From positions 1 through 24,647 of the forward strand of contig MUCU01000006.1 of the NCBI GenBank assembly GCA_002817055.1: 24,647 nucleotides of DNA, in the 5' to 3' direction. Numbering within the stretch: position 1 is the stretch's first letter; each line of letters opens with the position of its first letter. The translations under genes were made by a program, and so were the position numbers. The notes under the pieces are model-generated. The model was not told the DNA's origin, searched no databases, and was given only the letters and a program-made list of their open reading frames with translations. Origin of the DNA: SAR202 cluster bacterium Io17-Chloro-G7 (lineage in GTDB: Bacteria; Chloroflexota; Dehalococcoidia; UBA3495). This document shows, piece after piece, positions 6,140 through 15,271 of the stretch.

Positions 6140-6646
6140 TTGATAAGAACGCTGGGGGACCAAACGCCCAGAGTGGCGGAAACGGCCTGGGTTAGCGAGT
6201 TCGCTTACGTAGTGGGCAACGTGGTAATAGGGGAGTATGCCAGCATTTGGCCGGGTGTCACCATACGGGGAGACGGTCCTACTACCATCGTCATAGGGAA
6301 CCACGTCAATGTCCAAGAAGGCTCCGTAGTCCACGGCGACGGTTTGGTGATTGAGGATAACGTAAGTGTCGGACACTGTGTAGTTGTCCATTGCGACCGA
6401 GTGGGTGAAGGCTCCCTTTTGGGTAACAACAGCACCGTGCTTCCCCGGGTGGTACTTGGTCCCCAGTGTCTAGTGGCCGCTAACTCGGTGATCCTTTCCG
6501 GGACAGACATTCCCCCGCGGTCTTTCGTCACAGGTGTGCCAGGTGTGGTCAAAAGGGAAGTTACGCCGCAGCAAATAACCGGGATGCAGCATACGGCCCA
6601 AGAGTTGGTACAAAGGGCCAAAATTTTTAAAGACAGCGGTCTGTAG
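6140..6646 (+). CDS. Gamma-class carbonic anhydrase-like left-handed beta-helix protein
   Basis: The protein has 168 residues, a usual length for the YrdA/PaaY/CaiE branch of gamma-carbonic anhydrases. Hexapeptide repeats run from about residue 20 to 135 (VVGNVVIGEYASIWPGVTIRGD and so on). The three Zn ligands of the trimer match His65 (SVVHGD), His79 and His84 (VGHCVVVHCD), with the usual 5-residue spacing between the last two. Arg43-Gly-Asp45 and Gln59 are also kept. This is consistent with CO2 hydration, though many members show little activity in vitro and may have other roles. The start is TTG at 6140 with GGGAG upstream. It stands alone, after a terminator and convergent with the methyltransferase gene. 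Confidence 0.9.
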   Translation: MIRTLGDQTPRVAETAWVSEFAYVVGNVVIGEYASIWPGVTIRGDGPTTIVIGNHVNVQEGSVVHGDGLVIEDNVSVGHCVVVHCDRVGEGSLLGNNSTVLPRVVLGPQCLVAANSVILSGTDIPPRSFVTGVPGVVKREVTPQQITGMQHTAQELVQRAKIFKDSGL

Positions 6647-6734
6647 CCGAAAGGAATAACAGGAGCCTCAGCCTAAGCAAATCCCAACCGTGCCATGTTT
6701 CGTCGTAAGTATGGTTGCCGGGCTTTGGCAGTTG

Positions 6735-7514
6735 CTAAAGGGGTTTGCTAGCCCGGAAATTGATACCCAAGGTGCCGAAGTTGGCGGCGCTGGACGCTTG
6801 AGGCGCACCGCCGAACACATCCTCCCGCCAAGTGATCTCGAATCCTAAGAAGCCCGACGCATTTACCACCGCCGCGAGCTCTGCTTCCAGCAGAGCGCCA
6901 GCGATTCAACCCGTCCAGAGATCAATCTCTAACTTGGCTTCTTCCGGCACTTGCACCTGCACCAAGATGTCGCCTATCTGCAGGCGCCCTCCCGGTTTCA
7001 ATACCCGGTACATCTCGGCTAGAGCAGCGCTTTTATCCGGTACGAGATTTAGCACCCCGTTGGAGATCACTACGTCGGCCCAGCCGTCGGGTACAGGCAG
7101 AGATTCGGCGTAGCCATCGCGGAACTCAACATTGGTCAGCCCCGCCTCCACCGCTGCGTGCCGGGCTCTTTCCCGCATCTCTGGGGTCATGTCCACACCA
7201 ACCACTTCGCCATTAGTGCCGGTCATGCGCGCAGCAATGAGGCTGTCAATGCCTGCGCCGCTGCCGACATCCACAATGTTCTCTCCAAGGCTGATTGGTC
7301 CGAGGCTGAACGGGTTGCCAGTGCCCGCAAACGCCTCGATTGAGGATTCTGGGATGCCTTCCAGCCATTCCTCGGAATAGCCCACCAGCCGAGTCAGGCG
7401 TCGACCGGTGTGGAAGTGAAATCCTTGATGCGGGTTTTGGGCAACCGCTTTGTACTCTTTGATGATGGCATCTCGTAAGCTGCCCAAGTCAACGGTTATC
7501 TCAGGTTGAACCAT
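6735..7514 (-). CDS. ArsM-like SAM methyltransferase with in-frame TGA (candidate selenoprotein)
   Basis: Reading from the ATG at 7514 (GGAGG eight bases upstream) through one TGA at 6906-6908 to the TAG at 6735-6737 gives 259 residues. Residues 23-72 (AVAQNPHQGFHFHTGR ... AFAGTGNPFSLGP) and the SAM motif VDVGSGAGID (81-90) match an ArsM-like branch of class I methyltransferases. The TGA is codon 203 in IDLWTG-(TGA)-IAGALLEAEL, where relatives have Cys; this aligns with Cys156 of AS3MT (LWGECLGGAL), an arsenic-binding residue. After the TGA, 56 codons with family-like sequence (VVNASGF, DVFGGAP, FGTLGINFRASKP) follow without another stop. A SECIS-like hairpin begins immediately. The gene could encode a Sec enzyme; a fresh nonsense mutation giving a 202-residue product, or a sequencing error, is the alternative. 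Methylation of arsenic is inferred, not shown. Confidence 0.75.
6870..6903 (-). promoter_or_regulatory. Candidate bacterial SECIS hairpin downstream of the TGA
   Basis: In mRNA sense, the upper stem GCTCTGC (6896-6890) pairs with GCAGAGC (6884-6878) around the 5-nt loop TGGAA (6889-6885). A lower stem CGCTG (6903-6899) pairs with CGGCG (6874-6870), with one mismatch and one bulge between. The loop begins 16 nt after the TGA and has G at its second and third positions; E. coli fdhF has a similar distance and loop guanines. The hairpin is real as base pairing; SelB recognition is inference. Confidence 0.5.
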
Positions 7515-7608
7515 GGACTCATCCTCCAAGCCATTCCAGGTTGTTCCTGGACCCTGCGGGGATAACTGAACTTCTTGCGAACTTATTGATCGAACGAGCT
7601 CCAATTAT

Positions 7609-7637
7609 AGCTTAAATTAGCTACAGCTTAAATTAGC
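7609..7637. repeat. 13-bp direct repeat, near-palindromic, 16-bp period
   Basis: AGCTTAAATTAGC occurs at 7609-7621 and 7625-7637, between the oxidoreductase stop and the methyltransferase start. Each copy is close to its own reverse complement, so it could be an operator for the methyltransferase or simply a duplication. Confidence 0.6.
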
Positions 7638-7655
7638 CAAAGTCTGCCGCAGCCA

Positions 7656-8591
7656 TCATAAACGCTGGGCGACGGGCAACACCTTGTCGGCCAAGTGCTC
7701 CATCACCCGGATACTATCGTCCAGACTATTGGTGCGAAAATCGAAAGTCAGTTGGTCGATGCCGATTTCGCAGCAGGCATAAACGTCGTCAATTATTTGC
7801 TGAGTCCCGGCTATCAGAGAGCCGCCGCTCCTGATCGAGTCGCTTTCGGTAATGCCGATATCGGTAAAGTGCAGGCTGCGCTTCAAAGAAATTGAAACGG
7901 ATTTTACATCGCGCTGGGCCCGGTCTATCCGCTGTCGCAAGTAGGGCAGATTTTCACCAACAAATTCCGGTGTTTGGCGTGTGGTGTGCCAGCAGTCGCC
8001 GTATTTTGCGGTCCGGCGAAGGGCGGCCTTAGTGTGGCCCCCCACCCAGATGGGGATATGGGGTTTTTGCACCGGCTTGGGGTAGAAATGGATCTTGTCA
8101 AATTGGTAGTGTTTGCCGTGGTACTCGGGTAGGTCCTCTTCCCACAAAACTTTGAATATCTCTATGAATTCGTCGCTCATCTGGCCCCGCTCCGCGTAGG
8201 GCACGCCCAAGACTTCGAACTCCTTCTCCAGCCACCCCACTCCTACGCCGCAAATAATACGGCCTCCACTCAAAACGTCAAGAGACGCAAACATTTTGGC
8301 TTGGACCACTGGATTGCGGTAGGGAAGGATTACGACGGTGCTGCCTATTTTAACAGTGTCGGTGCAAGCAGCCAAAAACCCCAACAGGGTCATGGTCTCG
8401 AGGAAGGGGGCGTCAGACGCGCTGGAAAACGAACCGTCGGCGGTGTAGGGATATTGGTTAGTGCCACCGGTTGGCAAAACGACATGATCGCCCAACAGAA
8501 CCGACTCAAAACCCAACGCTTCGGCCCGCTGAGCAAAGCGCTTCAAACCGGCTGGGTCGGGTATGCGGGGTATGCTGATGCCTATGTTCAT
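7656..8591 (-). CDS. LLM-class F420-dependent oxidoreductase (luciferase-like TIM barrel)
   Basis: The protein has 311 residues with the full luciferase-like monooxygenase pattern: MNIGISIPRIPD at the first strand, ALGFESVLLGDHVVLP, then LLGFLAACTDTVKIGSTVVILPYRNPVVQAK, LDVLSGGRIICGVGVGWLEKEFEVLGVPYAERG and the HIPIWVGG strand. This pattern marks the F420-dependent (TIGR03619-like) branch rather than FMN luciferase, though cofactor choice cannot be proved from sequence. Such enzymes are very abundant in SAR202-type Chloroflexota, where they are thought to attack recalcitrant organic matter. The ATG at 8591 has a purine-rich AAAGGA upstream. Substrate unknown. Confidence 0.9.
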   Translation of the reverse strand: MNIGISIPRIPDPAGLKRFAQRAEALGFESVLLGDHVVLPTGGTNQYPYTADGSFSSASDAPFLETMTLLGFLAACTDTVKIGSTVVILPYRNPVVQAKMFASLDVLSGGRIICGVGVGWLEKEFEVLGVPYAERGQMSDEFIEIFKVLWEEDLPEYHGKHYQFDKIHFYPKPVQKPHIPIWVGGHTKAALRRTAKYGDCWHTTRQTPEFVGENLPYLRQRIDRAQRDVKSVSISLKRSLHFTDIGITESDSIRSGGSLIAGTQQIIDDVYACCEIGIDQLTFDFRTNSLDDSIRVMEHLADKVLPVAQRL

Positions 8592-9004: not shown

Positions 9005-10474
9005 TTAAGCGGCTCCACGCACAAACTCATCCAACCGCTGGTGCAGCATCACCATGGCCATGGTGTCCTGTTTACAGTACTCAAGTAGATTTTGCCTTTC
9101 GGTTTCGGCAAATTGACCGCTGTAGCGACCCATGGCCAGATAGGCGAAGGTTACCATGGCGGTCTCACCTTCCGCGATGTTCAAGTGGGAGTAGGACATA
9201 CTCGGCACCAAAGCCGGCAGGGTGCTCTTCAACGAAACGCTGCCGCCAAAATCTGGGTGGTAAAAATTCTTAATTATTATGTCTTGCAAGTCTACGATGC
9301 GGCCAAGCAGCGATTCCAAAGACGGAGCCAATGGAGGAAGTATATTTGCCAACCCTTTGATTATCGTCTTCTCAAAATTGGAATATACAATAATGCTCCC
9401 TTCACCCGGCAAGTCCTCAATCAGCCGTTGGGCCAACTCGAGCCTGGAATCTTTGGTGTGATCGCAGAGGAATTCGGCATGGGAGATAACATTGCCGACA
9501 TCGTCGCAACAGTGGGAGGAGTACTGGGTTGGGATCTGGCTGTACGGCGCAATATCGGGATACAGTGGAATTGCGGTCATTACCGATTCAAAGTCCAGGT
9601 AGTGGGCTGGCCACATGACTTGGGCAAGCTCATTCCCGAGCCCATCGCGCACCGTTGGTTTTTGAGCTTGAACCGATTCCCACATTATTGTTTGGCGCTC
9701 GGTCAGAGGAAAGGTGGCGGGTATGTCTTCAATACGCACGATGCCGGCTTCGGTTAGCTGGTCGAACTTCTTAGGACTCAACCTGGGGATTTTGAACACA
9801 TGGTTTTCTACCTCGTTCCCCATGCACTGGGAGAACAGAGGGCACTTGCGGCATGCAATCTTAAGCACCGGCTCCGGCTTTTTGGTCCTGCTGGTTTCTT
9901 CAATGATGTTCGGCCAGATTTGACGTAATGCCTCGGCGCGAATTAAGACCTCCTCGGTGTGGTCCACTTCCACGAAAAGGTCGCTGTTACTCATACCCAG
10001 GCGATAATCCTTGGAGATAAGCAACAGAGACGCTTGAGTAATCTCTATCCTAGCCTGGGAAAGCACCATGACGGTGTAAGCCATGTCGTCAATGTAGTTC
10101 CCCCGGTCATTCGCACTGGACTTAACCTCCACCAGACGCCATCCAGCGCCGTCTCTAATCAAGACGTCAGCCCTGGCGGCTGTCCCGTCCACACGAAACG
10201 CGGCTTCGAAAATGATGCGGTTGCTGGGGTCTGCCATCGCCTGCCGAGTGGAAGCGGCGGCCTTATCCATGTCCTTTTCTTCAATAAGTAGACCGGTGGG
10301 ATAAAGGGTCCTAGCGCGACTTCCAATTTCCAAGCCCTGTTCGACCCGAAATAACTCTCCCCTGGTTTTAGGCGCCTGGAGATCTTGGTCGATTATATCT
10401 TCGTTTCGCAGCTCCCAGCCCAAGGTAGGACAGGTGATAGTGTTCAAGAACAGGGTTTTGGAAAGGTTTCGCAT
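9005..10474 (-). CDS. DUF2779 protein: Cas4/AddB-like PD-(D/E)XK domain plus DEDD exonuclease-like domain
   Basis: The protein has 489 residues from the ATG at 10474; a TTG 24 nt upstream is possible but less like the family start (NLSKTLFLNTITCPTLGWE). The N-terminal half has a PD-(D/E)XK nuclease pattern: Glu90 (IIFEAAF), Asp103 (RADVLI) and Glu116-Val-Lys118. Cys15 together with Cys208, 211 and 217 (ACRKCPLFSQC) forms the one-plus-three Cys layout of the 4Fe-4S cluster in Cas4, AddB and Dna2. The C-terminal half looks like a DEDD 3'-5' exonuclease: HYLDFES (Asp294, Glu296), VYSNFEKTII near 363-372, and YCKQDTMAM (Asp470). No Cas or helicase gene lies nearby. A DNA repair or defence role is plausible; biochemical function is unknown to me. 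Confidence 0.85.
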   Translation of the reverse strand: MRNLSKTLFLNTITCPTLGWELRNEDIIDQDLQAPKTRGELFRVEQGLEIGSRARTLYPTGLLIEEKDMDKAAASTRQAMADPSNRIIFEAAFRVDGTAARADVLIRDGAGWRLVEVKSSANDRGNYIDDMAYTVMVLSQARIEITQASLLLISKDYRLGMSNSDLFVEVDHTEEVLIRAEALRQIWPNIIEETSRTKKPEPVLKIACRKCPLFSQCMGNEVENHVFKIPRLSPKKFDQLTEAGIVRIEDIPATFPLTERQTIMWESVQAQKPTVRDGLGNELAQVMWPAHYLDFESVMTAIPLYPDIAPYSQIPTQYSSHCCDDVGNVISHAEFLCDHTKDSRLELAQRLIEDLPGEGSIIVYSNFEKTIIKGLANILPPLAPSLESLLGRIVDLQDIIIKNFYHPDFGGSVSLKSTLPALVPSMSYSHLNIAEGETAMVTFAYLAMGRYSGQFAETERQNLLEYCKQDTMAMVMLHQRLDEFVRGAA

Positions 10475-10673
10475 TATTTTTCCAGACCAATCTCCCAAAC
10501 GGACCTTCCCGACTAAGGTTCCGGGAAAAGATTGATTTTTAGTCTAGTGAACCTGAAATCCTAAGAGCGATTCCCAGGCAACCGTTTGCAGGGCGGTCGA
10601 ATGGGTGACCACGAATGGCAGTATAGGGCGAGGAAACAATTGCGTCAAAGCGGTATTTTGTGCCCGGATTAGG

Positions 10674-12284
10674 CTACTCCCCGCAACCCGGCGGGTAGGA
10701 TTTTGTAGAAACCCGGATACCTTGATTATTAAATAGGCCTGCCGTATCCGGAGACGAGTTTGCCCATATCGCCCTTCCTCGAGAAAATGAAAAGCCACCC
10801 CATTCCGGATGGACTTCGTTAGTGTATATGCGGGCCCTGGCTCCGGTGGCCAACGAGTAGGCGGGGAAAGTGAATGTGGGTCCACCGTCACTAACGTCGG
10901 TCAGTGTCCAGCCATCCAAGTCCACGGAACCACTTCCTTGATTAAGCAACTGAACGTATTCGTCCGCTTCGCTTACCGGGACGATGCCGTCGAAAAAGAT
11001 GCATTCGATCATTACCTGGGCTGGTCCTGGCGCCGGTAATGGCGTAGAAGTGGGCGTTGGAGTGGGCGTTGGAGTGGGCGCCTCGGTTGGAATAGCGGTT
11101 GCCGCAAGGCTGGGTACGGTGGTGGCGGTTGGGTTAGTGCCAGGGGTTGCCGTCGGAAGAGGAACGAATGTAGCCGTTGGCAAGGGAACTACGGTGGCCG
11201 TTGGAACCGGAACCCCAGTGGCGGTGGGAGCAGCAGGAATTGGTGTCTCAGGAATTGGTGTCTTCGGGGCAGGCGCCGGAGTTTCGATTGGACTAGTAAT
11301 AGCGGTGGCGGCGGGATTCGGTTTCGCCGGATCCGGTTTCGGAGTAAAAGCAAAAGCGGCGGTAGGCGCCGGCGTCGGCGTCGGCGTGGCAGTGGGAAGC
11401 ACTATCGTTGGCAAGGGATTGGGCGCCGGTGTCGGCTCAAGAACCGGTGACGGCGTAGGTGTATATCCTACGGGCGGCATCGAAGTAGGACTTGTTCTTG
11501 GCACCGTTGAATTAGGGATTGTTGAATTAGGGATTAAAGTAATGGTTGCGGGAGGATTTGCTTGCCGACAACTCCAAAGGCCAGCATTCTTCCCTTGCGC
11601 TTGCTGCTGTAGCAGTAGAAAGCTTTCTTCCCGGCTGCTTTGGCCCTCGCTATAGACTCTGGCCAAGCCGAGCCGCACCAGCTCTGCATTAAAGTCTTGG
11701 CCCTCTACTTCAACAAATGCCAACAATCTGCCGAACGAGAACAACTGACTGAATGTCAGGCCTCCACCTGGCCCTAGCTCTCCCAATTCCTGATCTAGGT
11801 ACAAGGTCACAGTCCGGTCTAGAATATTATCGACTACGAATTGCTTCGCAGTTACGCCCCAACTGTCCAAACAGCCAGTATCAATAACTCCTCGGTATTC
11901 ATTGGGTTTGTTGGCTTGAAATGTTTCGGGGGCATCCACTCCCAGCAACCGGACCCTATCCCGGTTTCCGTCGCTGGTTTCGACCTCTATCGTATCTCCA
12001 TCAATGACTCCCACAACCTTCACCTCAATCGTCGAAGGTATCCCGAGGATAGTCAGCCTTGCGGGCTGTAGGGTTTCGGGTGGAGGAAATACCGATTCGG
12101 GCCTACCCGCCGGGGAGGTAGAATGGGTTGGGTAAAGGGTAACATCAGGGAAGGTAGTCGCCGCCACAACCCCGTCCCGAGGCAGGGCGATTTGAGTAGA
12201 AGGGTTCGGCGACGGCTCAGCGACGCAACCGACGACGAGGTATACCCACCGCAGAGACAGAATGTGGGAGAATAAGCACTTCAT
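10674..12284 (-). CDS. Lipoprotein with thermonuclease (SNase) domain, Pro/Thr-rich linker and lamin-tail domain
   Basis: The protein has 536 residues. A hydrophobic N-terminus ends in the lipobox LVVGC (Cys20), so it is probably lipid-anchored outside the membrane. Residues 85-240 are a staphylococcal nuclease domain with every key position: Asp97 (DGDT), Arg112, Asp117 and Glu120 (VRLLGVDAPET) and Arg186 (FGRLLAF); these correspond to Asp21, Arg35, Asp40, Glu43 and Arg87 of SNase. Residues 241-422 are low-complexity, built of PTPTP, VPLPTAT and similar short repeats, a wall-spanning type of linker. Residues 423-534 are a lamin-tail (LTD) beta-sandwich (EYVQLLNQGSGSVDLDGWTLTD). It likely degrades extracellular DNA or RNA at the cell surface. 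The upstream ribosome site is weak and a triple 21-bp repeat lies just ahead. Confidence 0.9.
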   Translation of the reverse strand: MKCLFSHILSLRWVYLVVGCVAEPSPNPSTQIALPRDGVVAATTFPDVTLYPTHSTSPAGRPESVFPPPETLQPARLTILGIPSTIEVKVVGVIDGDTIEVETSDGNRDRVRLLGVDAPETFQANKPNEYRGVIDTGCLDSWGVTAKQFVVDNILDRTVTLYLDQELGELGPGGGLTFSQLFSFGRLLAFVEVEGQDFNAELVRLGLARVYSEGQSSREESFLLLQQQAQGKNAGLWSCRQANPPATITLIPNSTIPNSTVPRTSPTSMPPVGYTPTPSPVLEPTPAPNPLPTIVLPTATPTPTPAPTAAFAFTPKPDPAKPNPAATAITSPIETPAPAPKTPIPETPIPAAPTATGVPVPTATVVPLPTATFVPLPTATPGTNPTATTVPSLAATAIPTEAPTPTPTPTPTSTPLPAPGPAQVMIECIFFDGIVPVSEADEYVQLLNQGSGSVDLDGWTLTDVSDGGPTFTFPAYSLATGARARIYTNEVHPEWGGFSFSRGRAIWANSSPDTAGLFNNQGIRVSTKSYPPGCGE

Positions 12285-12500: not shown

Positions 12501-13400
12501 ATGGAAAAGGGCGACACAGTTATAGACGCTGGTGATGTTAGCATTGCCATGAGCTATCGGGCTGAGATTATGGACGACCAAGGCCTCTGTCTTCAGGTCT
12601 ACAGCGAGATCGACGGCAAGGATACTGAAATACTGAGGTTCGATTGCTTTGACCAGGCACCACATTATCACTATGGTCCGGAGAATCTTAATGTCAGGCT
12701 GTTCATGGACAAGACGACAGCCGGGAACCCTCTGGGTTGGACCTTGAGTCAACTGCGCAACAACCTCCCCGCAATGTTCGAACGGTCGGGCTACGACGAA
12801 TTGGCTGAGAAGGTTACGACAAAGCCCGTGGCCATAGAGACCCTCGATCAGGTGGAAGCAACGGCTCGCGCCATGTCCCGGGATGGGCGGCGCACGGTTC
12901 ACCACAAGTTCGAGCGGCAACTGGACGGCGACCGCTTTGAAGCCGGGAACATTGCCATCGGATTGGAATACCGGATCTTATCCCAGATTAATGACGAAGG
13001 TATGGCTATTCACGTCGTGTCCAATGTTGCTGGACAGGAAGTGGAGTTGCTGGCTTTCGACTGCTTCCAGAACGGTCCCCACTATCACTATGGGCCCCGC
13101 AACCAGGATATCCGGATTTATTGGGACACCACCACGTCCGGTGAGACCCTACGCTGGACCTTGGACCAGTTCAAGGCCGGTAACCTGCGCAAGATGATCG
13201 AGCGGGCTGGCTACCCAGCCATCGCCAGCGAGTTGGATGAAAATCTAGTGCAGTCGATCCTGCCAAAGATAGAAAAGAGGGCATTCGATTTGGTTGCTGA
13301 GAACAAGGCAGCCCAAGCCAAGCCCAATGACGAAAAGAAGACCAAGGCTCAGTTGATCCAGGAAATCGAGTCTCTCCGAGATCAAGTAGCAGCCCTCTAA
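12501..13400 (+). CDS. Unknown protein with two copies of a HYHYGP domain and a C-terminal coiled coil
   Basis: I do not recognise this family. The 299-residue protein contains an internal duplication: residues 9-98 and 147-238 share the pattern (D/E)AGN-IAI-YR-I, then FDCFxxxPHYHYGPxNxxxRxxxDxTTxGxxLxWTLxQ, then MxERxGY. HYHYGP occurs at 55-60 and 194-199, each preceded by an invariant FDCF. The His/Tyr/Cys clusters could bind a metal or a ligand. Residues 279-299 (KKTKAQLIQEIESLRDQVAAL region) should form a coiled coil. There is no signal peptide or membrane segment, so it is cytoplasmic. The ATG has TGGAGGC just upstream. It is monocistronic, with a strong terminator after it, and diverges from the SNase/LTD gene across a repeat-bearing spacer. 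Confidence 0.85.
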   Translation: MEKGDTVIDAGDVSIAMSYRAEIMDDQGLCLQVYSEIDGKDTEILRFDCFDQAPHYHYGPENLNVRLFMDKTTAGNPLGWTLSQLRNNLPAMFERSGYDELAEKVTTKPVAIETLDQVEATARAMSRDGRRTVHHKFERQLDGDRFEAGNIAIGLEYRILSQINDEGMAIHVVSNVAGQEVELLAFDCFQNGPHYHYGPRNQDIRIYWDTTTSGETLRWTLDQFKAGNLRKMIERAGYPAIASELDENLVQSILPKIEKRAFDLVAENKAAQAKPNDEKKTKAQLIQEIESLRDQVAAL

Positions 13401-13576: not shown

Positions 13577-14371
13577 TCACATCATCGTGTAGCCGCCACT
13601 GACGCTAAGCGTCTGCCCGGTAATAAAGCTTGCGGCGTCGGAAGCCAAGAACACTACGGCGTTGGCGATTTCGCTGCTGGTAGCCAGTCGACGTAGGGGA
13701 TAGCTTCGCTTTACCCGTTCCCGCACGTCTTCGGTGAAAATGTCCTGCATCTGGTTCCACATGCTCTCTTCGCTGATGGACTCCTCCTCCGGAGGCACCA
13801 CCACACCAGGGCAGACGACGTTAAGACGGATGCCGTAACGACCGGTTTCCCTGGCAACCGATTTGTTTAGCGCAATTATTCCCGCTTTACAAGCCGAATA
13901 AACTGCTTCCCGGTATTCCCCCATGCGGCCAGCATCGGAACTTATGCTAACAATCGCACCCGACTGGCGCTCGACCATAGACGGCAACACGCTATGAATG
14001 CAATTTATCGCTCCCCAAAGATTTACCTGAACTTCCTTTTCCCATTCTTCTCGAGGCTTTTCCAGGAACAACCGATCGATCGTCCATCCGACGTTATTGA
14101 CGAAAACGTCGATACTGCCAAATTCAGCGAGAGATTGCTCCACCATTCCTTCAACCTGCAGGTGGTCCGAGACGTCTGTGCTAATCACCTTGACTCGGCT
14201 GGCGCTACCGGTGGCCGCTACCTCGACCGCCACCTTTGCTCCCTGCTCAGGCGCCAATTCGGCAATGGTGATGTTGCTGCCTTCGGCGGCGAAAGCATGA
14301 ACAATGGCCCGGCCAATATTAGAACCTCCGCCGGTGACAATTACGTTCTTGCCCTTCAGTCCCAGCTCCAT
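13577..14371 (-). CDS. Short-chain dehydrogenase/reductase (SDR, classical)
   Basis: The protein has 264 residues, within the classical SDR range. It has the nucleotide motif TGGGSNIG (13-20), NNVG (92-95), the active-site Asn117 in QVNLWGA, Ser144/145 in SISSDAG, and Tyr158-x3-Lys162 in YSACK. The second strand ends in AEL, an acidic residue that favours NAD(H) over NADP(H). The C-terminus GQTLSVSGGYTMM resembles hydroxyacyl-CoA or hydroxycyclohexanecarboxyl-CoA dehydrogenases (BadH-like), suggesting an acyl-CoA or alcohol substrate, but that is inference. ATG at 14371 is preceded by GGAGGATATCT. Confidence 0.92.
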   Translation of the reverse strand: MELGLKGKNVIVTGGGSNIGRAIVHAFAAEGSNITIAELAPEQGAKVAVEVAATGSASRVKVISTDVSDHLQVEGMVEQSLAEFGSIDVFVNNVGWTIDRLFLEKPREEWEKEVQVNLWGAINCIHSVLPSMVERQSGAIVSISSDAGRMGEYREAVYSACKAGIIALNKSVARETGRYGIRLNVVCPGVVVPPEEESISEESMWNQMQDIFTEDVRERVKRSYPLRRLATSSEIANAVVFLASDAASFITGQTLSVSGGYTMM

Positions 14372-14533
14372 AGATATCCTCCGGGATTATTAACCTTTTC
14401 AGTGATCTGCGGGACACGGTACCACATTCTTTGTTGCAAACACTGAGTGGTTATGTCGGCTAAGGAAGAGCGGTGCGGAGCGATTCGCACATTTACGGGG
14501 GGGTTGGTGATAGTATTCAGCTTGGAGCAGTGT

Positions 14534-15271
14534 TCAGCTTGGCTCGTTACCTGGTGCTGATACGTTGGGTATCCCGCCAATGCGCAATCGAAGTAGCCCC
14601 TTTATATCCTCAGTGGCCGTGCTGGATATATGCACGGTGCTGTTGGGGTCGTCGTCCCATTTCACCGGTACCTGGTTGATCTTGTAGCCACGTTTTGCAG
14701 CGATGATCAGCAACTCGGTATCGAAAAACCAGTTGTCGTTTTTGATGTGAGGCACAATAGCCTGGGCCGTCTTTCGGGTCAGCGCCTTGAACCCGCACTG
14801 GGCGTCCTGAAAAGGGGTGAAAAACATGGATCTAATCAGCATGTTGTAGCTGCGGGAAATGAACTCACGTTTGATGGACCGGGTCACCCGAGAGCCCTTA
14901 CTGAGCCGACTGCCAATGGCGACGTGATAGCCTTCCTCCAGCGAGCCCACTAAGCGAGGGAAATGGCTAAGGTCGGTGGACAAGTCTACGTCCATATAGC
15001 TAACTATGTCGGCGGTGCTGTCCAGCCACGCCACCTTGAGGGCCCGACCTCGGCCCTTTTGAGGGATGTGCAGATAATTAATGCCCGAGTATCGCTGGCA
15101 TAGCATTTCGGATACCGATTTTGTGTTGTCGGTTGATGCGTTGTCGGCGATGATAATTTGCCAGGGATTTCGCAGGTTGGCCTTGAGGAAGTCGGCCAAG
15201 ATTACGATATTCCTTGGCAGGGCTTTTTCTTCATTAAAAACTGGAATTACTACATCAACGGTGCCACTCAT
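14534..15271 (-). CDS. Family 2 glycosyltransferase, dolichyl-phosphate glucosyltransferase (ALG5)-like
   Basis: The protein has 245 residues. It shows GT-A features of GT2: VDVVIPVFNEEKALP (5-19), ADNASTDNT (42-50), KGRGRAL (72-78), and the metal-binding DxD as Asp94-Val-Asp96 in YMDVDLSTDL. QDAQCGFKALTR and NDNWFFDTELL follow, the pattern of the ALG5/polyprenyl-phosphate glycosyltransferase branch that moves a sugar from a nucleotide donor onto a lipid phosphate. No transmembrane segments are visible, so it would act at the inner membrane face as a soluble or peripheral enzyme. It is on the same strand as purH upstream (203-nt gap) and SDR downstream (162-nt gap); no functional link is evident. 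Confidence 0.88.
   Translation of the reverse strand: MSGTVDVVIPVFNEEKALPRNIVILADFLKANLRNPWQIIIADNASTDNTKSVSEMLCQRYSGINYLHIPQKGRGRALKVAWLDSTADIVSYMDVDLSTDLSHFPRLVGSLEEGYHVAIGSRLSKGSRVTRSIKREFISRSYNMLIRSMFFTPFQDAQCGFKALTRKTAQAIVPHIKNDNWFFDTELLIIAAKRGYKINQVPVKWDDDPNSTVHISSTATEDIKGLLRLRIGGIPNVSAPGNEPS

Follow-up and report, generated by a model that had tools for sequence, protein, structure and literature searches.

A gene on the minus strand of the window (the whole 24,647-nucleotide stretch of contig MUCU01000006.1 from SAR202 cluster bacterium Io17-Chloro-G7 analysed here) encodes an ArsM-like SAM methyltransferase whose reading frame contains an in-frame TGA at codon 203. Sequence comparisons strongly support reading this TGA as selenocysteine (Sec), and thus the gene as a genuine selenoprotein gene. 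In the proposed explanation, to which we assign a probability of roughly 0.94, UGA203 would be decoded as Sec through SelB and tRNA-Sec under the guidance of a SECIS hairpin a short way 3' of the codon, and the full product would be a single-domain methyltransferase of 259 residues. The features concerned are as follows.

6735..7514, minus strand: coding sequence of the predicted selenocysteine-bearing class I SAM methyltransferase of ArsM-like type, 259 residues counting Sec203 (open reading frame, profile matches, AlphaFold and Foldseek).
6906..6908, minus strand: in-frame TGA, codon 203, predicted to be read as selenocysteine; aligned to CmArsM Cys224 / AS3MT Cys206.
6878..6896, minus strand: predicted bacterial SECIS hairpin with an 8-bp stem and a GGA apical loop starting 17 nt after the TGA (folding, alignment and codon simulation).
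7523..7527, minus strand: GGAGG, likely ribosome-binding site, 8 nt 5' of the ATG (sequence read directly).
7404..7421, minus strand: FHFHTG motif, residues 32–37 (119 of the 120 relatives listed).
7056..7058, minus strand: Gly153 codon, at the place of the As-binding CmArsM Cys174 / AS3MT Cys156 (HMMER alignment).

The frame opens with an ATG at 7514–7512, has one internal TGA at 6908–6906 and continues for 56 more codons to a TAG at 6737–6735; the coordinates given in the first-pass annotation for the start, the TGA, the continuation and the final stop (7514, 6906–6908, 56 codons and 6735) are correct. From base composition, the chance of 55 stop-free codons is ~0.12, so the open frame beyond the TGA is weak evidence when taken alone. 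The read-through protein fits the family right up to the C-terminus, and the earlier description of family-typical sequence beyond the TGA is borne out by its match to relatives over this region. The protein matches Pfam Methyltransf_31 (1.1e-29), which indicates a class I SAM methyltransferase. An AlphaFold2 model built from a 64-row alignment has a mean pLDDT of 88.8 and a pTM of 0.89, and its structure is still mostly confident past residue 203. The first 13 Foldseek matches in the PDB are all ArsM or AS3MT chains (TM to query 0.65–0.74), so that profile, model and structural matches agree on an ArsM-type class I SAM methyltransferase fold. Upstream of the gene, at 7604–7637 on the minus strand, GCTAATTTAAGCT is present twice as direct copies whose starts lie 16 nt apart, running into a TATAAT-like box. 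Scans of positions 6500–7800 for consensus promoters and terminators found nothing, and a plasmid search with the window gave no match. Elsewhere in the window (12501–13400, plus strand) a hypothetical protein shows an internal duplication in which FDCF...PHYHYGP is present twice.

The TGA is well conserved among relatives. The aligned set comprises 45 distinct rows, i.e. the window and 44 relatives at 49–85% identity, and codon 203 is TGA in 42 of these rows (41 of the 44 relatives) and TGC in 3. A database comparison, in which 120 relatives were listed of 8000 scored, shows Cys at the Sec site in 100 of those listed, Trp in 4, Arg in 1 and Tyr in 1, while 14 others (81–90% identity) end exactly at the residue before it. 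The four with Trp are presumably gene calls made with a code in which TGA specifies Trp; those with Arg and Tyr are P0029 and P0037. Several relatives of ~360 residues (P0002, P0006, P0012, P0030 and others) have a PF01206 (TusA-like) domain in their precomputed annotation, presumably at the C-terminus, which is a possible functional hint. In a search of 393 genomes of the class (E ≤ 1e-60) matches were found in 45 genomes, and of the 48 matches 45 have one internal TGA and 3 have none. The TGA form occurs in MAGs labelled KSB1 (two copies), Chloroflexi B17T3L14, Nitrospinota UBA8248 and Acidobacteria, where the phylum labels are as given in the records and mis-binning is possible; the TGC form was found in one Dehalococcoidia MAG. 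The two Sec-type copies of the KSB1 MAG (L001) lie ~4 kb apart, at 10001–10750 and 13966–14718. Two TGA copies also occur on contig C18 of genome G450 (113316–113966 and 114102–114860, with 135 bp between them), one of which is diverged, with 37% identity to the window protein.

Of the genomes searched, G433 contains the closest relative (locus L072, contig C148), at 85% identity. When 20 kb of the window and of G433 were compared, the methyltransferase gene was the sole syntenic match. The PurH protein of the window has a 94% homologue (P0122), whose own best match in the 393 genomes is in G382 (78%), and the gene order GT-purH-purM-purF is common to the window and the G382 locus. G382 was drawn from the class of the 'Dehalococcoidia bacterium' G004, so the host of the window probably belongs to that class, which lies in Chloroflexota. 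Nine of the 50 genomes in G382's family have a TGA form closer than the 37–47% paralogues, the best being that of G433; of these nine, the one in G441 also has a TAG, and that in G445 is a fragment. A quick tree of 86 proteins, with Trp counted as Sec, implies at least five changes between Sec and Cys, just two of which are forced by starred branches, and suggests the Sec form at the base of the tree.

Downstream of the TGA, where the hairpin is predicted, the mRNA reads AUCGCUGGC-GCUCUGCU-GGA-AGCAGAGC. The 43-nt stretch after the TGA folds at -24.0 kcal/mol (z -3.34), and 1 of 200 shuffled versions was equally good; the tighter 31-nt stretch folds at -13.3 kcal/mol with a z of just -1.70 and 15 of 200 shuffles equally good. 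The matching stretch of the TGC gene of L004 has a z of -0.51. The GGA loop, 8-bp stem and 17-nt spacing agree with the bSECIS description in section 5 of PMC13188914. A hairpin is present in 41 of the 42 TGA rows (window included), the exception being L079, which has N letters in the stem, and it is missing from that place in all 3 TGC rows. The first two loop positions include a G in 40 of the 41 hairpins. At a fixed offset the stem is CTCTGC/GCAGAG in 33 rows, CTCTCC/GGAGAG in 4 and a single G-U variant in 2; a register-shifted stem, CTCCTC/GAGGAG, is found in 2 more. On these alignments the stem changes are compensatory, with the hairpin kept as a stem. The codon for Ala207 is GCT in 39 of the 42 TGA rows versus GCG in all 3 TGC rows. 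In 200,000 synonymous versions of this stretch simulated with the codon usage of the window, the combination of an 8-bp stem, a G in the loop and a loop start 16–25 nt after the TGA arose at a rate of 0.0009 (0.09%). The window contains 23 TGA-ended stretches of at least 60 codons that can be extended by at least 30 codons, and the codon-203 TGA alone is followed by such a stem of more than 4 bp. Rfam searches returned no family at gathering score for the whole window, and for the 81-base hairpin stretch a chance match to H19_2 alone (E 0.85).

The one hairpin lacking the loop G is that of L072 in G433, in which the loop, ATCCA, is the exact reverse complement of the TGGAT loop of some relatives and the stem arms are unchanged. 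This change replaces Leu-Glu with His-Pro. It looks like an inversion at a palindrome, which could have arisen by template switch or as an assembly artefact.

Codons downstream of the TGA are under purifying selection. An alignment of close homologues had been proposed as a check on the selenoprotein reading, and the TGA and TGC counts among the relatives (41 and 3 of 44) are accompanied by dN/dS values of 0.09–0.20 downstream of the TGA in 11 pairs (the window against 11 of the 44 relatives, one a Cys form). Upstream, dN/dS is 0.05–0.19 in the 7 unsaturated pairs of the 11. These values are rough because synonymous sites are near saturation.

The Sec machinery was sought in 80 genomes, comprising 47 TGA carriers, 3 Cys carriers and 30 non-carriers. 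A selA match is present in 40 of the 47 TGA carriers (39 over cut-off), in none of the 3 Cys carriers and in 14 of the 30 non-carriers (40/47 vs 14/30, Fisher p 0.0007). A strong tRNA-Sec match, counted by eye over a threshold of 55 bits chosen in this analysis, was found in 41 of 47 TGA carriers, 1 of 3 Cys carriers and 18 of 30 non-carriers; 64 of the 80 genomes score above the Rfam cut-off of 47 bits, and the weaker matches were judged to be other tRNAs. Since 14 of the 30 non-carriers have selA too, the machinery is an enriched but not an exclusive partner of the TGA form. The selA match is missing in 7 of the 47 TGA carriers, two of which (G126 and G224) are also without a strong tRNA-Sec match; these genomes are fragmented, and their completeness is unstated. 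The selB gene is over cut-off in G001, G003 and G004 and under it in G002 and G005. Among the nine TGA carriers of G382's family, selA and tRNA-Sec are each found in 7 and selB over cut-off in 5 (missing in 4), while G433 has selA, selB, selD and tRNA-Sec. The Cys carrier G004 nonetheless has tRNA-Sec and selB. All 11 genomes tested for selD have it, and in each of them (L088–L091 and others) the best selD match itself contains an internal TGA. Visual inspection of the ORF translations of neighbours in the window and in five relatives' loci (L001–L004 and L098) revealed no recognisable ars or sel genes.

Two other readings of the TGA have to be weighed against selenocysteine. It could be a true stop, with the gene either a recent nonsense pseudogene or the source of a working 202-residue protein, and the fact that the evidence for Sec machinery comes from relatives' genomes leaves this reading some room. 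However, relatives bearing the labels of several phyla share this TGA, with dN/dS of 0.09–0.20 beyond it, the TGA forms keep the hairpin at the nucleotide level and the 3 TGC forms do not, and the AlphaFold model stays mostly confident past residue 203, all of which makes a true stop highly improbable. A pseudogene was rejected since the TGA, the downstream coding selection and the hairpin are all conserved, and a sequencing error was likewise rejected as unlikely given the conservation of the TGA. Reassignment of TGA to an ordinary amino acid throughout the genome finds some support in the Trp at the site in 4 of the 120 listed relatives, presumably the outcome of gene calls with a TGA=Trp code. 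Against it, TGA terminates 9 of the 20 other predicted genes of the window, tRNA-Sec, selA, selB and selD are found in relatives, and 100 of the 120 listed relatives have Cys in place of the TGA codon. Because TGA serves as a normal stop in the window, we consider such a reassignment very unlikely, with hardly any probability left to it. The selenocysteine reading, which the first-pass annotation had offered as a candidate, is thus favoured by a conserved TGA with TGC counterparts, purifying selection, a SECIS hairpin and Sec machinery in relatives.

The identity of the residue was assessed by HMMER alignment to the ArsM of Cyanidioschyzon (CmArsM, PDB 5eg5), with residues counted by hand. Codon 203 had been equated with AS3MT Cys156; it aligns instead with CmArsM Cys224, which is Cys206 of AS3MT, and the place of the 'SNC' Cys174 of CmArsM (Cys156 of AS3MT) is taken by Gly153. 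Gly is found at this place in 116 of the 120 listed relatives, the other 4 not being matched by the pattern. According to passages of PMC3877260, the As-binding sites of CmArsM are Cys72, Cys174 and Cys224, and those confirmed in human AS3MT are Cys156 and Cys206; the C174A, C224A, C156S and C206S enzymes are reported there as inactive, and dimethylarsenite, methylarsenite and arsenite as bound by one, two and three Cys, respectively. The window protein has no Cys, leaving Sec203 as its sole chalcogen side chain besides methionines. The number of Cys per protein in the 120 listed relatives, the site's own included, is 0 in 12, 1 in 20, 2 in 58 and at least 3 in 30, and in the 64-row alignment no Cys column besides the Sec site reaches full or near-full conservation. 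His33 and His35 are invariant in this alignment and absent from two Cys-rich ArsM paralogues; FHFHTG adjoins the place where these two paralogues carry a CC cluster. Of four paralogue loci examined in the same genomes, two (G002 and G003) fit the Cys-rich pattern of SNC plus Cys clusters. The Sec site is therefore an As-ligand position whose essential partner Cys is missing. With Gly at the Cys156 position and no Cys anywhere in the protein, arsenite coordination is unsupported, as is the earlier proposal of a Sec at an arsenic-coordinating site.

A related question is that of the substrate, on which the gene could be a canonical arsenite methyltransferase in which Sec just improves As(III) binding alongside partner Cys; this is compatible with the Sec explanation. 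Its fold and motifs are ArsM-like, the Sec site corresponds to an As ligand of CmArsM (Cys224, as described in PMC3877260), and the name is the one used in databases and reviews. Yet there is no Cys in the window protein, Gly takes the place of Cys174 in 116 of the 120 listed relatives, the paralogues' CC cluster is missing beside FHFHTG, and the enzymes altered at that Cys (C174A and C156S) are among those reported inactive in PMC3877260. The criterion for ArsM given in PMC5552862 is at least three of four Cys at CmArsM positions 44, 72, 174 and 224, of which position 224 alone has a counterpart here, and that a Sec. The protein scores 220.8 bits against NF008823 (arsenite methyltransferase), under the cut-off of 263, versus 299.7, over the cut-off, for the Cys-rich paralogue of G002; the Cys-form relatives P0018 (232.1) and P0053 (246.5) and the TGA relative L072 (211.2) are all under 263. 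Nor were ars genes recognised by eye among the neighbours read. A canonical arsenite methyltransferase thus seems unlikely, at perhaps one chance in four.

A more novel reading, which we put at somewhat below even odds, is that the branch marked by FHFHTG, SNG and (U or C)IAG is something other than an arsenite methyltransferase: its one conserved chalcogen ligand (Sec in many members, Cys in others) would serve a substrate needing one soft ligand (dimethylarsenite or another thiophilic element or compound), possibly with the two invariant His as co-ligands. Since dimethylarsenite binds one Cys and arsenite three (PMC3877260, in the passages noted above), a one-ligand substrate fits better than arsenite. 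In the selenocysteine explanation itself, Sec203 would be the only soft ligand close to the methyl group of SAM and would most likely hold a soft, thiophilic substrate that is methylated by SAM, both this step and arsenic as its substrate being presumed; His33 and His35 might, more speculatively, act as co-ligands.

Whether Sec forms of this family were already catalogued had been left open, and they are. A Sec arsenite methyltransferase is listed in the GOS survey (PMC2398784, first count 8) and by Peng 2016 (PMC5029168, counts 39 and 41, presumably organisms and genes), and PMC9312934 also lists a Sec arsenite (S-adenosyl)methyltransferase. Table 1 of a 2026 review (PMC13188914) gives the Sec form as 'Experimentally verified' with the motif UxxG, citing Fomenko et al. 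2007, and the review cites Haft and Tolstoy 2025 for double-Sec relatives; NCBIfam has NF041536, NF041537 and NF047649. Comparison with the Sec arsenite methyltransferase family was by NF008823 score and the UxxG motif. The window protein resembles the Sec 'arsenite (S-adenosyl)methyltransferase' (PRK11873 / NF008823, UxxG) in being ArsM-like with one Sec in UIAG, and differs from the Sec 'arsenite methyltransferase' (reference protein WP_011987699.1) in its NF008823 score under the cut-off and in having no other Cys. Its four best NCBIfam models are NF041537 ArsM_AhpD_UU (244.0 bits), NF008823, NF041536 ArsM_DUF2284_UU (217.4) and NF047649 MTase_UXPK_star (212.2). The methyltransferase parts of the three double selenoproteins are thus among the four best-scoring models, although the protein is far under their cut-offs (NF041537 510, NF041536 575 and NF047649 460), and their names and lengths (345, 459 and 283 positions) imply a further domain, whereas the window protein ends after the methyltransferase, at residue 259. 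With CmArsM, CrArsM and human AS3MT the window model has its fold in common, as well as the alignment of Sec203 with CmArsM Cys224; unlike them it has no Cys174 equivalent or any Cys, and it has 259 residues versus 299–333 in the listed targets. A literature search on selenoproteins of SAR202 or Chloroflexota found no paper. Because Sec forms had been published by 2008 at the latest, the gene is an added case of an already known selenoprotein type.

Automatic gene callers end these proteins immediately ahead of the Sec, as in 14 of the 120 listed relatives, and annotation therefore misses both that residue and the C-terminus. The family is widespread in the class: 45 of the 393 genomes drawn have a match. 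Because the 'arsenite methyltransferase' label rests on fold and homology, with most As ligands missing, metagenome counts of arsenic-methylation genes may include an enzyme with another job. The remaining interest of the gene lies in the missing arsenic ligands of a Sec-only branch.
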